From positions 1,282,455-1,346,454 of the forward strand of contig NZ_JALAAD010000001.1 in the NCBI RefSeq assembly GCF_022984075.1: a stretch of 64,000 bases of DNA, read 5' to 3'. The notes beneath the pieces were generated by a model. That model made no database searches and was not told the DNA's origin. It worked only from the letters and a program-made list of their open reading frames with translations. Position numbers and translations under genes: made by a program. How positions within the stretch are numbered: the stretch's first letter is position 1; each line of letters begins with the position of its first letter. This DNA is from Synechococcus sp. C9. Its GTDB lineage: Bacteria > Cyanobacteriota > Cyanobacteriia > Gloeomargaritales > Gloeomargaritaceae. Shown here in pieces: positions 3,116 to 9,138 of the stretch.

Positions 3116-3820
3116 TCAAATCGCTGACCCACCCATTACCATTGGACCCGTGGGGGCATCCGTCATGTCTGGCTCTTGGGTAATGGCTAGGGTTTGTACG
3201 TTCGGGGCATTGGGCATAAAGCGAGGATTGGCCCAGCGAATCACCCCACTCTCGTTGGGAATGAATTTACCGCAGGCGATTTTTTTCCCATCCTTGGTGA
3301 TCGCCCACAGGACATAGACCTGATCCTTGGGGGGTTTGGGGAGTTTTTGGTTAAACACCACCAGCACTTCCCCTTGCCCCGTCAGCACCCGGGCAGTCGC
3401 TCCTTTGGCCGTATCCCTGCCCGTCAGGGTGGCCATCTGGGTGTCCCGGTTTTGCAAGGCCGCCACCACTTCCCGTTGTACCTGCAATTCCCGCTGGGCG
3501 AGGCGCAGCTGCTGACCGTTGAACCAACCCCAGGCCCCCAGTCCACAACTCCCTACCACCCCCGCCGCCGCTATCCCCCACAACCAAGGCCGGGGACGGG
3601 CCGGGGCGGTGGCGAGAATTTTCTGTTTGAGGGGAGGGGGAGGTGCCACGGCTTCGCAACCATAGGCCAAACTATGCCAAGCGGTATTTAATGCGGTTAA
3701 TTCCTGCGCCAAAGCCGGGTCGGTGGCCATTTGGGTTTCCCACACCTCCCATTCCTGCGCCGATAGGTCTTGGAGAACCAGACCAGCCAATAATTCTTCC
3801 GTGGGGTCGTTCATAGGCAT
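3116..3820 (-). CDS. RskA-type membrane anti-sigma factor
   Basis: 234 aa. The N-terminal 75 residues (LLAGLVLQDLSAQE, LAQELTALNTAW) match the sigma-binding anti-sigma domain. A single transmembrane helix at about residues 83-103 (LWGIAAAGVVGSCGLGAW) is followed by a short coiled segment and a periplasmic RskA/anti-sigma-K C-terminal domain (GQGEVLVVFNQKLPKPPKDQ and YVLWAITKDGKKI). No zinc-binding HxxxCxxC motif is seen in the N-terminal part, so it is not a ZAS-type anti-sigma. It lies 9 bp downstream of the sigma gene. By family logic it holds the sigma factor at the membrane until a signal triggers proteolysis. Confidence 0.88.
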   Translation of the reverse strand: MPMNDPTEELLAGLVLQDLSAQEWEVWETQMATDPALAQELTALNTAWHSLAYGCEAVAPPPPLKQKILATAPARPRPWLWGIAAAGVVGSCGLGAWGWFNGQQLRLAQRELQVQREVVAALQNRDTQMATLTGRDTAKGATARVLTGQGEVLVVFNQKLPKPPKDQVYVLWAITKDGKKIACGKFIPNESGVIRWANPRFMPNAPNVQTLAITQEPDMTDAPTGPMVMGGSAI

Positions 3821-3829
3821 GGGATAGGT

Positions 3830-4390
3830 CTATATCTGATCCTGCAACAATTTGCGGAGTTTTAACAGGACGGTACGGGTACGGGTTTTCACCGTGCCTA
3901 GGGGTAGATTTAATTGTTCAGCAATCTGGGCTTGGGTCAACCCCTGGTAGTAAGCCAGTTCCAGCAGATGACGTTGCTCCGCCTCCAGTTGGGACAACGC
4001 CGCCTGTACCCGCTCCTGCCGTTCCTGTACACTCACCTGTTCCCACAACCCCCCTGCCACCGGCATCCATTCCCCAGCCCCCCACCGCTGAGCCAACCGC
4101 AGGCGAGCTTGGCGCATCCGCAGCCGGTCAATGCCCCGGGAACGGGTCAGGGTAGTGAGATAGGTCGCCACAGAACCCCGCTGGGGGTTGTAGCCCCCCT
4201 TGTGCCACAGGGTCGTAAACACTTCTTGGGTCAAATCCTCCGCCTCCTGGGGTTGTTGCAAAACTCGCAATGCTAAGGAATACACCAGGGTACCGTAGCG
4301 TTCGTAGAGCAGAGCCATTGCCCGGGATTGACCCTGCTGAATGCCCTGGAACAATTCCTGGTCGGTGCTGCGGGGGGAAAAAAAATTCAT
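3830..4390 (-). CDS. ECF (group 3/4) RNA polymerase sigma factor
   Basis: 186 aa. Region 2 spans about residues 20-95 (AMALLYERYGTLVYSLALRV, EAEDLTQEVFTTLW). Region 4 spans about residues 132-182 with a helix-turn-helix (GLTQAQIAEQLNLPLGTVKT). There is no region 1 or 3, as expected for an extracytoplasmic-function sigma. The gene order DM13 protein, sigma, anti-sigma resembles the SigG-type loci I recall from other cyanobacteria. It is probably cotranscribed with the anti-sigma 9 bp downstream and the DM13 gene 29 bp upstream, and may autoregulate the unit (inference). Confidence 0.9.
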   Translation of the reverse strand: MNFFSPRSTDQELFQGIQQGQSRAMALLYERYGTLVYSLALRVLQQPQEAEDLTQEVFTTLWHKGGYNPQRGSVATYLTTLTRSRGIDRLRMRQARLRLAQRWGAGEWMPVAGGLWEQVSVQERQERVQAALSQLEAEQRHLLELAYYQGLTQAQIAEQLNLPLGTVKTRTRTVLLKLRKLLQDQI

Positions 4391-4419
4391 ACCCTCCAGT
4401 GTACCCCCCGGACTTGCCC

Positions 4420-4848
4420 CTACAGTTTGGCGAACCCAAAAGTGGCGTTAAATTGCCGACACCAAACCGCTACGGATTGATACCGACTCACATCCACATT
4501 AGCGGGAATGGCATAGCGTTGTTGTCCTTGGGTCTTTTGCAATTTCCCCAAAGTCACATAATCCTCGGCTTTCAACCCACCAATCGGCACCGTTGCTTGG
4601 CGGTACAAAATCACCTGCAAATCGGGACCCGCATCGGTTTTGAATTTTTGGTCAAATTCGACAAAGGTTTTGCCGCCTGCGGTGACAATTTTCGCCGTGC
4701 CCTGGGTGGGATGTTCCGCTTTCACAAACATACCTTGGCGCAGGGCTTGGGCAAACCCCGGGGCAACCCACACCGGCGCACCCGCCAGGGAGACAAACAT
4801 CGCCCCACCCACCCACCAACGTCCTAAATTGCCAAAATTCATGACCAT
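4420..4848 (-). CDS. DM13-domain exported protein
   Basis: About 140 aa with a signal peptide (residues 1-34, hydrophobic core WWVGGAMFVSLAGAPVW). The DM13 domain follows (GTAKIVTAGGKTFVEFDQKF, DLQVILYR, LGKLQKTQGQQRYAIP) and ends in the hallmark cysteine segment VAVWCRQFNATFG. DM13 domains are proposed to act in electron transfer at the cell surface; the single conserved Cys is present. It heads the unit with the ECF sigma and anti-sigma factor and is a candidate target or sensor component of that system. Start at 4848, or at the second ATG (4842). Confidence 0.85.
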   Translation of the reverse strand: MVMNFGNLGRWWVGGAMFVSLAGAPVWVAPGFAQALRQGMFVKAEHPTQGTAKIVTAGGKTFVEFDQKFKTDAGPDLQVILYRQATVPIGGLKAEDYVTLGKLQKTQGQQRYAIPANVDVSRYQSVAVWCRQFNATFGFAKL

Positions 4849-4928: not shown

Positions 4929-7241
4929 TTACGAACCCAAATCCGGGATGGATTCGGTCGGGGCAAAAATCTGCCAACTCACCCCCACAAACCCCAGGAT
5001 ATAGACCCCAATAGCGATGGCGGCAAAGGCGGCTAAGGTTGCCCAAATCGGATGCCCGCCCTTGGTTTTTTTGCCCTGCCGGGTTTCCATCTGCTCCACA
5101 TCCAACCAAGGGGTCGCCCCCCACCGCAACCACCCCTGCACCGCCACCGGCTTGCCAATCAACCGCAGGGGATGGCGACTGCCCAACCACAGATGCCGTA
5201 AATAACTGGGGGACGGTTGGTAATGCAGGGGAATCGTGCCCTTGCGGGTTGCCAGCCACAAATCCTGCCCCAGGGCATTATCCCAACTCAACCGCCCCAA
5301 CAACTGCCCCTGCCAATACTGGGGTTGCCCATAGGCTGGGGAATGCGCCCCCACCGTCACCGCCTGTACCACCTCCGGTTCCGCCTCCGGGCGAGTGCGG
5401 GGCAGATCGGGATAAAAGAAATTCACCCGCACCAAGGTTCCACACCCCCAGCCAAACCAAGCCAACGCCACCGCCACCCACCGATCCGGCTGGGACAAAA
5501 ACCACCCCATCAACAGCCCGACGAACCACCCCACCAACCAGCCCGCCCCCAACCCCAACCAGGGTGCCAGATACAGGGCGTGCTGTTGCCAGGGCAAGGG
5601 TTCCCGCGGGGGGATCGTCACCTCCGGCGGTATCTTCCAGTCCTGCGCCAACCGCATCAGATGACCCAACCGAGTGGTCACATCCGCCTGCGCCAGGGAT
5701 AAATTCAACCAAGGCCAGCGGGGACGCAACACCTGCTCCCAGGGCACCTCCGGCGGCAGTGTCCCCAAAAAGACCCCCCAACGGGGATGTACCGGCAGGA
5801 GCAATTCCCACAGGTTGTAGAGATGCGGCAGACCGCCCTTTTCCTGCAAAACCGCCGCCGTCCCCACATTCAATTTCAAAATGGCCCGGGCGAGGGCATT
5901 CGGGTCAGGGGTAATGAGCATCGCCCGCCGGTCAGCATAGCAGGTAAATACCCGGGCAAATCCCAACCCCCCCCACCGCCACAATCCCCACCACCCATAA
6001 AAGAGCCAAGACAGGGTGCCCGTCAGCCAACTCACCCGCCGCCAGCGTTCCCCCAGCCGAGCCAGATGCAGATAAATTAAGTAAGGAATGTGGTGTAACA
6101 AGGTTAACCCCGACAGCAAGCCCAGCCCCAAAAATATTGCCGTCCGTCCCAGGGGCAAACGCACCAACAACCGCCGACTCAACTCCTGCGCCACCAATGC
6201 CACCAACTCCCGGTCATCCAGGGCAGACTCCGCCCCCGCCGTGATCACCAACCAATGGGCCCGGGGCAACCAACCAAAACTCCATACCAGGGGTGCCGGA
6301 TGTTCCAAATACCAGAGTTTAATCGGCGGCCAGCGGCGGTCGGTGCTAAATTTTTCCAGCAATCGGGCGGTTTCCGGGAACCGTTCCCCCAATTCCGCCA
6401 GGGTCAACGCCCGTCCCGTTCCCAACCGTTTCACGCTCCAGCCCAGTACCCAAGGAGCCGTCGTGAAACACAACCAGAGCAAACCCACCGTGATCCCCAC
6501 CGGCGGTTGCACCCAGCTAAAGTAACGCAGGGTTAAAAAGAGAATTTGACTGCCCGCCTGCCCCACCCAATAAAAACTGGTCAAGACCAAAAGATAGACC
6601 AAAGCCAACGTGCCCAAACCCAACAACCACAAGGGCCAAGTGGCAGGGCGTTGGAGTTGCGTCCATTTTTGCGGCCGGGGAGCATTGCGCCAAGCACGCT
6701 GAACCGGCACCTGCGGATCGGGTAATTGCGGGGTGGTACCGGGAGAACCTTCTGGCGCAGGCACTTCAGGATTTAATCCAGGCGGCGGCGCAGATGACTC
6801 TATGGACGGGCTATCTAACTCTGATGAAATAGGGGCTATTTCTACCGGATTAGTTTCTGCGGCGGGGGAATGATTGCTTAAATCGGGGGAATGATCTTCT
6901 AATTCTGCCGAGGAAGCCAATGCTTCTGGCGAGTTAATTTCCGGTACGGGTAAATCATTAGTTAATTCTGTGGGCTTAACGCATCCTTCTGTTAAATCAT
7001 TTTTTTGTATTGGTAAATTATCTTCTAATTCTGGCAAGTTATCAGATACGCTCAAGGGATTAGCTTCTAATTCAGAAAGATGAGCAGATGCCGTCCAAGG
7101 GTTTGTTTCTGATTCCGCTAATGAATCCCGTGAGCCAACCGACTCTAACCCTGATGGTGGTGCCGACGATGGTTCTGGGGCAGGCGTTTCCCCCCCATTG
7201 GCTGGCGGTAGGTTGGTTGACCGTTGGTCTGCGTCCCCCAT
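4929..7241 (-). CDS. Large M48-like membrane protein with lost zinc-binding motif
   Basis: 770 aa from ATG 7241, preceded by GGGGGA 4 bp away; an upstream ATG at 7358 would overlap the previous gene by 64 bp and is less likely. Residues 1-180 are an acidic, low-complexity stretch rich in S, E, P and N with loose repeats of the type ELExNLP. Residues 195-560 resemble an M48/HtpX-type membrane peptidase (hydrophobic helices around 205-280, 365-425 and 545-600), and the C-terminus ends with one more helix. At the site where HExxH is expected (about residues 347-353) it reads AQELSRR, and the EYxAD-like third-ligand motif reads TCYAD, so all three zinc ligands appear missing. Probably a pseudoprotease or scaffold. 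It lies 53 bp downstream of the Get3d-like gene, so likely in the same operon. Confidence 0.75.
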   Translation of the reverse strand: MGDADQRSTNLPPANGGETPAPEPSSAPPSGLESVGSRDSLAESETNPWTASAHLSELEANPLSVSDNLPELEDNLPIQKNDLTEGCVKPTELTNDLPVPEINSPEALASSAELEDHSPDLSNHSPAAETNPVEIAPISSELDSPSIESSAPPPGLNPEVPAPEGSPGTTPQLPDPQVPVQRAWRNAPRPQKWTQLQRPATWPLWLLGLGTLALVYLLVLTSFYWVGQAGSQILFLTLRYFSWVQPPVGITVGLLWLCFTTAPWVLGWSVKRLGTGRALTLAELGERFPETARLLEKFSTDRRWPPIKLWYLEHPAPLVWSFGWLPRAHWLVITAGAESALDDRELVALVAQELSRRLLVRLPLGRTAIFLGLGLLSGLTLLHHIPYLIYLHLARLGERWRRVSWLTGTLSWLFYGWWGLWRWGGLGFARVFTCYADRRAMLITPDPNALARAILKLNVGTAAVLQEKGGLPHLYNLWELLLPVHPRWGVFLGTLPPEVPWEQVLRPRWPWLNLSLAQADVTTRLGHLMRLAQDWKIPPEVTIPPREPLPWQQHALYLAPWLGLGAGWLVGWFVGLLMGWFLSQPDRWVAVALAWFGWGCGTLVRVNFFYPDLPRTRPEAEPEVVQAVTVGAHSPAYGQPQYWQGQLLGRLSWDNALGQDLWLATRKGTIPLHYQPSPSYLRHLWLGSRHPLRLIGKPVAVQGWLRWGATPWLDVEQMETRQGKKTKGGHPIWATLAAFAAIAIGVYILGFVGVSWQIFAPTESIPDLGS

Positions 7242-7294
7242 ACGTTCCCCCAGGGCAAGATAATCAAGATAATCAACATAATTAGAATGTAATC

Positions 7295-8347
7295 TTAAAA
7301 GGTGATGGTCAAGTAGGGTTCGTGGAAACGGGCACTGGTAATCTTCTGCCCTTGCCATTGGCTTGGTAGGGTAATATTCCGCCGCTGGTCCCCCGCCTCA
7401 ACCGTTAAGCCGGGGCCATACTGGGTGAGTTTAACCTGGGATTTCTGAAATCCGGGTAAAAACAACTGAATTTGTTTGGCTTCCAAGTCCAAGGTCATCG
7501 GGGCGGGCACCGGAGCCAAATGGTCAAAATCCAACAAATGCTCCCCCGTCCCCACCGGCAAGGGCGCAAAGCGATCCCCCAAGGTCGCCGGTTCCCCCTC
7601 GGTCAACAACACCCCCTGCACCCGTACATCCACCTGCTGGGCACTCCCCCACCACCAGCGAGCCATCTGCACGTCAAACTTGTGACCATTGGTGACCAAA
7701 TAGGCGCACAGGGCTTGGGGGTCATTGACCAAATCTTGCCCCTGGCGGAACAAATTTTCTAGGAATTCCTTGGGTTGCTCCAGGCTTTGGTTTTCCCAAC
7801 CACTGGTGAACATCGCCCCCACCAAAGGCGTGACAAAGGGGGAAACATTGCGGCTAAATTCCGAAGCGACCAACACCTGGGTAAACCGCCGGTAATACCA
7901 GTCCGCCAGGGTGGGCACCCCCATCATCCGCAGGGTTTCCCGGTCGCTGGCACCGTCGTATAAAATCACATCGTACTGCTCATCCTGGCGATAACTCCGC
8001 AGGGCATTCAGGGTCAATAAACTATCCAAACCCGGAAAGACGCTCAATTCCTGCCCATACACGTCCCGGAAAAAGGGGGATTTCACATAGCGGGCTTCCA
8101 GAGCCTTGAGTTCTTCCCAGAGTTGCTCAAGTAGGACGATGGCTTGGAGTTGTACCGCTTTGATCCCTGGACTCACTTCCTGGGGTTGCGGGGTTAAGGG
8201 GGTTTCCAGTTCCCGATCCAGGTGGGGGTTGGGGCAATGGGTGACGACCAGCACCCGTCTTTGCCGTTGGGCGAACCAGCGAGCCACCCCGGCGACGATG
8301 CCTGCCCGCTGCCCCGCTTGCCCCAGCCAGGTGATGATGCGCGCCAT
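7295..8347 (-). CDS. Get3d/ArsA-like protein with degenerate P-loop
   Basis: 350 aa. The fold signature of Get3/ArsA NTPases is visible: an N-terminal beta-strand (ARIITWL), VLVVTHCPNP, EQYDVILYDGASDRETLRM (switch-like) and VLLTEGEP. The C-terminal 65 residues form the alpha-crystallin-like domain typical of photosynthetic Get3d proteins (QIQLFLPGFQKSQVKL, then LTVEAGDQRRNITLP). The Walker A segment reads GQAGQRAG (about residues 9-16) instead of GKGGxGKT/GRT: the lysine and the terminal Thr/Ser are both replaced, so ATP hydrolysis is doubtful. Its ATG overlaps the DUF2862 stop by one base (TGATG), so it is translationally coupled. A family-wide divergent paralogue is possible. Confidence 0.8.
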   Translation of the reverse strand: MARIITWLGQAGQRAGIVAGVARWFAQRQRRVLVVTHCPNPHLDRELETPLTPQPQEVSPGIKAVQLQAIVLLEQLWEELKALEARYVKSPFFRDVYGQELSVFPGLDSLLTLNALRSYRQDEQYDVILYDGASDRETLRMMGVPTLADWYYRRFTQVLVASEFSRNVSPFVTPLVGAMFTSGWENQSLEQPKEFLENLFRQGQDLVNDPQALCAYLVTNGHKFDVQMARWWWGSAQQVDVRVQGVLLTEGEPATLGDRFAPLPVGTGEHLLDFDHLAPVPAPMTLDLEAKQIQLFLPGFQKSQVKLTQYGPGLTVEAGDQRRNITLPSQWQGQKITSARFHEPYLTITF

Positions 8348-8562
8348 CAGTTCAGCTTAAAGGCGGGTTCCAATTCTTCGGGGAAAAACCAGGTTTGGCT
8401 TTGGTCATTGAAACGCACGATCAGCCCAATTCCCTTGCCATCCACCACCCGCATATCACTCACCACGCCGACTTGACCCAGTTTTTTGCTGATTTCAGAG
8501 CCGACCCGGTCTTTCAAACAGCACACCCGCACTTGCTGACCGACATACATTTCTGCCGCCAT
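8347..8562 (-). CDS. DUF2862 small cyanobacterial protein
   Basis: 71 aa, close to the family's usual length. SH3-like barrel pattern: MYVGQQVRVCCLKDRV, KLGQVGVVSDMRVVDGKGI, then VRFNDQSQTWFFPEEL with the conserved C-terminal WFF(P)EEL. Function unknown; the family is nearly restricted to cyanobacteria. It is the first gene of the operon with the Get3d-like and M48-like genes, and its stop overlaps the next start. An association with membrane-protein handling is inferred only from that context. Confidence 0.85.
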   Translation of the reverse strand: MAAEMYVGQQVRVCCLKDRVGSEISKKLGQVGVVSDMRVVDGKGIGLIVRFNDQSQTWFFPEELEPAFKLN

Positions 8563-8649
8563 ACGCCTTTATCCTAGGGAACCAATGCCCAGTTTAGCGG
8601 GTTTGGGGGCAAGTTTGTTACATTGAGGATGCTTTTGTGCCAAACATCC

Positions 8650-9138
8650 ATGAGCAACCCACCGACTCGCCTGCTGTTTGTCTGCATGGGCAATATCTGC
8701 CGTTCCCCGGCGGCGGAGGGGATCATGAACCATTTACTCCGGCAAGAGAATCTGCAGGAACAATACGTTTGCGATTCGGCGGGGACGATTGGCTATCACC
8801 GGGGCAGTCCCCCGGACGAGCGGATGCAGTTGGCGGCGAAAAAACGGGGCATTCGCCTCACCGGGCGGGCACGGCAATTTGAGCGGGCGGACTTTGCCAA
8901 TTTTGACCTGATTTTAACGATGGACCGGCAAAACTATTGGGATGTCCTGGCGCTGGACGGGCAGAACCAATACGGGCATAAGGTGAAAATGATGTGCGAA
9001 TTTTGCCGCACCTATCCCTACAAAGAAGTCCCTGACCCCTACTACGGCGGGGCGGAGGGGTTTGAATTGGTCTTGGATTTGCTCACGGATGCCTGCAGCG
9101 GGCTGTTGGCTGATTTGCGCCAGGGTAAAGTTCCCTAG
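8650..9138 (+). CDS. Low-molecular-weight protein-tyrosine phosphatase
   Basis: 162 aa. The catalytic loop CMGNICRS (C12, R18) is at the N-terminus, with the general acid in VPDPYYGG (D129), both exactly placed for the family. It removes phosphate from tyrosines (cytoplasmic), often regulating polysaccharide or photosynthetic proteins in bacteria. The ATG at 8650 fits the family N-terminus (a few residues before RLLFVCMGN); an in-frame start at 8623 would add nine unlikely residues. It runs convergent with argJ, the two stops overlapping by 4 bp. Confidence 0.93.
   Translation: MSNPPTRLLFVCMGNICRSPAAEGIMNHLLRQENLQEQYVCDSAGTIGYHRGSPPDERMQLAAKKRGIRLTGRARQFERADFANFDLILTMDRQNYWDVLALDGQNQYGHKVKMMCEFCRTYPYKEVPDPYYGGAEGFELVLDLLTDACSGLLADLRQGKVP

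Follow-up and report, generated by a model that had tools for sequence, protein, structure and literature searches.

Adjacent genes for a Get3d without a P-loop and an M48-like membrane protein without a zinc site in Gloeomargarita, with separate histories

Three consecutive genes on the minus strand of Synechococcus sp. C9, a member of the Gloeomargarita group with a 2.96-Mb genome, encode the cytochrome b6f regulatory subunit PetP, the Get3 homolog Get3d, and a 770-residue membrane protein related to M48 peptidases, which we call pseudo-M48. They lie within the 64,000-nucleotide stretch analyzed here (contig NZ_JALAAD010000001.1; below, the window). Get3d has lost its Walker A motif, or P-loop, and pseudo-M48 has lost its zinc ligands; all three reading frames are intact, and the genes evolve under purifying selection. 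As judged from alignments and trees, the two losses have separate histories that meet in one genus. The families of the two proteins extend more widely through the cyanobacteria, and each has links to photosynthesis; only in the Gloeomargarita genus do their genes stand together. We postulate, with confidence that falls a little short of even, that Get3d would be a nucleotide-independent chaperone of hydrophobic clients for thylakoid membrane proteins and that pseudo-M48 would work alongside it as a membrane binder that does not cleave.

Results

The three-gene locus and its maintenance

The first gene, petP (71 amino acids; 8347 to 8562 including the stop codon, minus strand), had been labeled DUF2862 in an earlier, sequence-only reading of this DNA. 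The label agrees with the PF11061 match (E value, 6e-23), and the protein can be named more exactly as PetP (Tsr0524-like) from its score of 94.9 bits against NF050003, for which the cutoff is 65. The window protein lies above both the NCBIfam and the Pfam cutoffs and shows no notable difference from the described PetP, which attaches to b6f on its cytoplasmic side in Synechocystis (PMC9342900). The TGA of petP and the ATG of get3d (350 amino acids; 7295 to 8347, minus strand) overlap by 1 base, and a 53-bp gap separates get3d from the pseudo-M48 gene (4929 to 7241, minus strand). An alternative in-frame ATG at 7358 would extend pseudo-M48 to 809 amino acids and overlap get3d. This layout is as the sequence-only reading had described it.

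Pairwise Nei-Gojobori ratios of nonsynonymous to synonymous divergence (dN/dS) among six genomes of the genus ranged from 0.08 to 0.20 for the M48-like gene, from 0.10 to 0.18 for get3d, and from 0.05 to 0.16 for petP. With synonymous divergence reaching about 1.9 and several dS values above 1, most trust is due to the least saturated pair (G000-G002), whose ratios are 0.100, 0.115, and 0.052, respectively. Intact frames and low dN/dS rule out pseudogene decay, as had been argued from the frames at the outset. Both degenerate motifs are fixed in the six genomes (G000-G005), and with ratios well below 1 chance is no explanation; the genes look like maintained pseudoenzymes, not decaying ones. 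All three genes were missing from searches of one further genus member (G006; 98% complete, 260 contigs), for which an assembly gap is the likeliest cause.

A Get3d family member without a P-loop

The window Get3d matched NF050088 over its full length (residues 1 to 350; 420.7 bits against a cutoff of 325), as well as PF02374, and its C-terminal alpha-crystallin/HSP20-like domain (residues 292 to 350) matched PF17886 (E value, 1.6e-15). Its nearest named record, from Gloeomargaritales cyanobacterium VI4D9, is 97% identical. The nearest solved structure by sequence is that of Nostoc All4481, also called NosAFP or NosGet3d (3igf/8egk; E value, 1.7e-87), and the predicted model (pLDDT 81) has 8egk as its top fold match in the PDB (TM score, 0.83; E value, 6.5e-35). 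The protein thus resembles NosGet3d and its relative AtGet3d (8elf; PMC10248533) in full-length sequence and fold, in its HSP20-like C-terminal domain, and in lacking a CXXC motif.

It differs in its Walker A motif, which is lost outright. In an alignment with 50 cyanobacterial Get3d sequences, residues 9 to 16 (8300 to 8323, minus strand) read GQAGQRAG where GKGGxG[KR]T is expected, a replacement already noticed by the sequence-only reading; GQAGQRA aligns to GKGGTGRT but is one residue shorter and has neither Walker lysine nor the Ser/Thr. The deviant intradimeric Walker A that serves as a mark of Get3d is therefore absent from the window protein. The Get3d paper calls the P-loop conserved, with the canonical Lys replaced by Arg in some cyanobacteria, and treats it as variable within Get3d (PMC10248533), which is why we class the window protein, on its other features, as a variant member of the family.

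The loss is common to all six genus members that have get3d, in which the loop reads GQAGQRA, GQTGQRA, or GQAGRRA and an Arg persists. The sister genus has GGGSQRQ, and further losses occur in L082/L083 (family f26), L085 (f13), L063 (f27), and L054 (f17). When Lys, Arg, and Cys were all allowed at the canonical position, 12 of the 51 aligned sequences lacked the motif; the 51 include the paralog L007. The trees in this study were built by a quick method and have many open forks and long branches; on the Get3d tree, P-loop loss requires at least four changes, two of them forced by well-supported branches. A grouping of f26 with Gloeomargaritaceae (support 94) was counted as possibly false because both branches are long. 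Recurrent loss suggests that nucleotide turnover is dispensable for the conserved role of Get3d, at least in some lineages. A Get3 paralog with an intact P-loop (GKGGVGKT) is encoded in the window genome and in 18 of 18 other genomes checked, including those with a degenerate Get3d, so ATPase function may be covered elsewhere.

An alternative hypothesis would leave the M48-like protein as the one true pseudoenzyme and have Get3d respond slowly to nucleotide or phosphate through an unorthodox P-loop. The P-loop of NosGet3d, GKSGVART, is degenerate too, with the first lysine and an Arg kept, and that protein hydrolyzes ATP slowly (kcat, 0.28 per min), while the AtGet3d site holds phosphate (PMC10248533); the Arg left in the Gloeomargarita loop would fit the same idea. 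However, the loss of both lysines, of the Ser/Thr, and of one residue of the loop throughout the genus goes deeper than that in Nostoc. We consider this alternative unlikely.

Pseudo-M48 probably keeps the fold of a membrane metalloprotease

The position equivalent to HExxH in the M48-like protein reads QELSR (residues 352 to 356; 6174 to 6188, minus strand), so that the Glu is kept and both zinc-ligand His residues are gone. The third zinc-ligand segment reads TCYAD, compared with EYFAD in active paralogs (CYAD, 5931 to 5942, minus strand). The family alignment confirms both losses, which the sequence-only reading had proposed. The window protein has no Pfam match of its own; its relation to M48 peptidases was established through Peptidase_M48 (PF01435) matches in 28 of 36 aligned family members and through a full-length paralog in the same genome (L002) that carries HELGH and EYFAD and shares 23% identity over about 510 residues (E value, 8e-28). 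A profile search of the PDB added HtpX (3cqb; E value, 1.9e-8). Weak PsaJ matches in that search covered one membrane helix and were taken as chance.

An acidic Pro/Ser-rich N terminus (residues 1 to 172), in which no domain was predicted, is followed by membrane helices, the M48-like domain, two helices, an OB-like beta domain, and a last membrane helix; hydropathy and the helices suggest several membrane segments. In some M48-like relatives the N-terminal region is instead TPR-like (weak matches in L031 and L018). An alignment-based model of residues 173 to 770 (pLDDT 87.9; pTM 0.87) gave ZMPSTE24 as the top PDB fold match and, locally, the HtpX domain, with TM scores of 0.53 to 0.61 over the target and weak E values; OB-fold proteins matched the C-terminal beta domain, also with weak E values, and no match in this fold search reached an E value of 0.001 or below. 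Pseudo-M48 thus shares with HtpX/Ste24-type peptidases, L002 among them, homology over about 510 residues that takes in the C-terminal beta domain, but it lacks HExxH and the third ligand and falls on a separate branch from the HExxH copies.

That branch was found in an unrooted tree of 69 M48-family sequences built with the motif columns left out. A branch with SH-aLRT support of 100 sets off 42 sequences without HExxH, including the window protein; another (support 67) sets off 20 sequences with HExxH, and the other 7 without HExxH adjoin the HExxH group. A later sample of 29 sequences contributed 2 of the active type (L197 and L198), 26 without HExxH, and 1 (L173) with HEIGH, for a combined 98 sequences, of which 22 have both motifs, 75 lack HExxH, and 1 is intermediate. 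Across the pseudo-M48 clade the zinc-ligand His residues and the third-ligand Glu are lost, with varied replacements, and the Glu of HExxH is often kept. Rooting with L001 and L003, the remaining M48 proteins of the window genome, failed: the outgroup branches exceeded four changes per column, and the outgroup did not form one side of any branch. For this reason a single origin of HExxH loss is compatible with the unrooted tree but not shown by it.

Some copies without HExxH fall outside the main clade (L095, L118, and L120; L101, L124, and L125; L111; and L200 and L201; examples of their motifs are QALGR, YQLGR, and YEVGQ); these could have lost the motif independently or could belong to the main clade and be misplaced in the tree. 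The HEIGH of L173 (G105:C26:45501-47300), a candidate member of the pseudo-M48 clade, is accompanied by Tyr at the third-ligand position, and it may be a reversion or a retained ancestral state.

The pseudo-M48 clade occurs in about two thirds to three quarters of the sampled genomes, many of which also have an HExxH paralog; M48-family matches at an E value of 1e-60 or below, a count that includes the HExxH paralogs, occurred in 84 of 106 genomes. The genome sample searched yielded no pseudo-M48 from picocyanobacteria-like genomes (f2) or from f12, f14, and f21. The family is apparently a widespread, conserved, and uncharacterized cyanobacterial membrane protein, easily mislabeled as a metalloprotease by homology-based naming. 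It could be argued that the catalytic residues have moved to other positions and that the protein is still an active protease, an idea that draws on the often-kept Glu and on the HEIGH of L173. The clade-wide loss of the zinc-ligand His residues and third-ligand Glu, the variety of their replacements, and the Tyr of L173 make this scarcely credible as far as sequence can tell. Pseudo-M48 is instead probably non-catalytic, and a parallel is offered by the organellar pseudoproteases FtsHi and EGY3 (PMC8197885 and PMC9355673), which are likewise conserved noncatalytic kin of membrane metalloproteases in photosynthetic membranes or chloroplasts. The likeness is an analogy, since those proteins come from other protease families (FtsH and site-2), and we claim no homology.

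Gene neighborhoods across cyanobacteria

Gene positions were compared in a sampled set of up to 59 genomes. In 45 of the 50 genomes that have both genes (22 of 25 families), petP closely precedes get3d in the same orientation, at gaps of up to 846 bp, and G027, in which the pair is split between contigs, is probably the 46th. The chlorophyll synthase gene chlG is downstream of get3d in 26 of 54 genomes (17 of 26 families), within 400 bp in 24 of them. petP-get3d-chlG is a recurrent cyanobacterial gene cluster (L041-L089; G008-G058), and in three picocyanobacteria-like genomes without Get3d, petP and chlG are 35 to 38 bp apart.

The chlG of Gloeomargarita lies at another location. Directly 3' of get3d is the pseudo-M48 gene, its immediate and co-directional neighbor in each of the six genus genomes that have the two. 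This adjacency was not found in the sister genus or in other sampled genomes; in the sister genus (G007), an ABC-permease-like gene comes after get3d, and pseudo-M48 is on another contig with other neighbors. Synteny rules out the three genes as an ancestral operon, and a search for the three-gene neighborhood, as proposed with the sequence-only reading, recovers it within the genus and leaves petP-get3d as the conserved unit.

At 21 loci outside the genus (among L019-L040, L107, L110, L113, and L115), a co-directional RRM gene of the Rbp3/RbpG type comes next after the pseudo-M48 gene, mostly beyond a gap of 530 to 730 bp; the type was assigned from the sequence pattern and a longer non-glycine-rich tail, not from a tree. 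A prfC-like gene, named by eye from its sequence, lies upstream in about a dozen loci. In the open-access literature searched, we found none of the petP-get3d, get3d-chlG, and pseudo-M48-Rbp3/RbpG linkages and no report of ChlG and Get3 together, and slr1794 turned up only in the Get3d paper (PMC10248533).

The sequence-only reading had taken the two proteins for a co-evolved pseudoenzyme pair, which in its strongest form would be one dedicated Gloeomargarita complex with pseudo-M48 as the Get3d receptor. The conserved adjacency within the genus, the 53-bp gap in the window, and the purifying selection on two proteins that both look inactive by motif would suit such a complex. The adjacency, however, is confined to one genus and does not extend to its sister, and pseudo-M48 is inactive by motif almost everywhere in cyanobacteria, away from get3d and together with a Get3d that keeps its P-loop in most of those genomes. 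This co-occurrence rules out a coupled loss of the two active sites. We regard the dedicated complex as quite improbable, and a co-evolved pair is not supported. As to the refuting conditions set with the sequence-only reading, orthologs of Get3d with an intact Walker A do exist, though not among close relatives, no fully intact M48 site was seen in the pseudo-M48 clade, and selection is not relaxed.

At the other extreme, an unrelated pseudo-M48 gene could have been placed behind petP-get3d by chance in the Gloeomargarita ancestor, with no functional link. The restriction to one genus and the different gene order elsewhere are what this would predict. On the other hand, the order has been kept in six genomes despite synonymous divergence of up to about 1.9, and get3d and pseudo-M48 each independently have photosynthesis-related neighbors. 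We consider a chance neighborhood somewhat unlikely.

Discussion

We postulate that the three-gene row combines two older units in an arrangement specific to Gloeomargarita. The first would be the conserved petP-get3d pair, which continues into chlG in many lineages, and the second the pan-cyanobacterial pseudo-M48 gene, here in the place after get3d that chlG takes in other lineages. The linkage of petP and get3d, with chlG downstream in about half of the genomes, ties Get3d to cytochrome b6f and chlorophyll delivery; the process in which Get3d most likely works is thus the biogenesis of thylakoid membrane proteins.

What the sequences show directly is the order of the genes, the families they belong to, the missing catalytic residues, purifying selection, and the conserved linkages; on these grounds a loss of catalysis is well supported. 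The nucleotide-independent chaperone and the non-cleaving adaptor are inferred from these linkages together with published data. The partners of ChlG in Synechocystis include the YidC insertase (PMC6175206). Thylakoid biogenesis is supported by RbpG, whose mutant has disturbed thylakoids (PMC11500504). AtGet3d and NosGet3d are closed without bound nucleotide, have no A-loop, and bind tail-anchor segments, and b6f subunits have been named as possible clients (PMC10248533). That binding makes plausible the membrane-protein chaperone role that the sequence-only reading had suggested. We speculate that the Gloeomargarita Get3d dimer, closed without nucleotide like its solved relatives, would hold hydrophobic segments of thylakoid membrane proteins, with the small single-helix cytochrome b6f subunits as candidate clients and with no or negligible ATP turnover. 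Pseudo-M48, which would be derived from HtpX and have kept the fold without the zinc site, could bind membrane proteins without cutting them and might thereby serve as an adaptor or regulator in the biogenesis or quality control of membrane proteins, perhaps acting on its HExxH paralog.

Several points weigh against this interpretation. get3d and pseudo-M48 are unlinked outside one genus, and gene linkage does not show interaction. In the sampled genomes, several photosynthetic lineages have Get3d but no pseudo-M48 gene. Moreover, the slow ATPase of NosGet3d means that motif loss alone is not proof of inactivity. That Get3d and pseudo-M48 act together is therefore possible but unproven.

A bolder version would make pseudo-M48 the missing membrane partner of Get3d, a receptor or insertase adaptor, so that two dead enzymes form a nucleotide-independent Get-like route to the thylakoid. 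No partner of Get3d is known from photosynthetic organisms, and no client is known either (PMC10248533). We hold this version to be very improbable; if true, it would mean that a Get3d/pseudo-M48 targeting route has been made visible in Gloeomargarita by the joining of its genes.

Neighboring genes

Downstream of the pseudo-M48 gene, a DM13-domain gene, an ECF sigma factor gene, and an RskA-type anti-sigma gene lie in a row (3116 to 4848, minus strand). On the other side, divergent from the adjoining petP, a gene at 8623 to 9138 on the plus strand appears by eye from its sequence to encode a low-molecular-weight protein tyrosine phosphatase-like protein.

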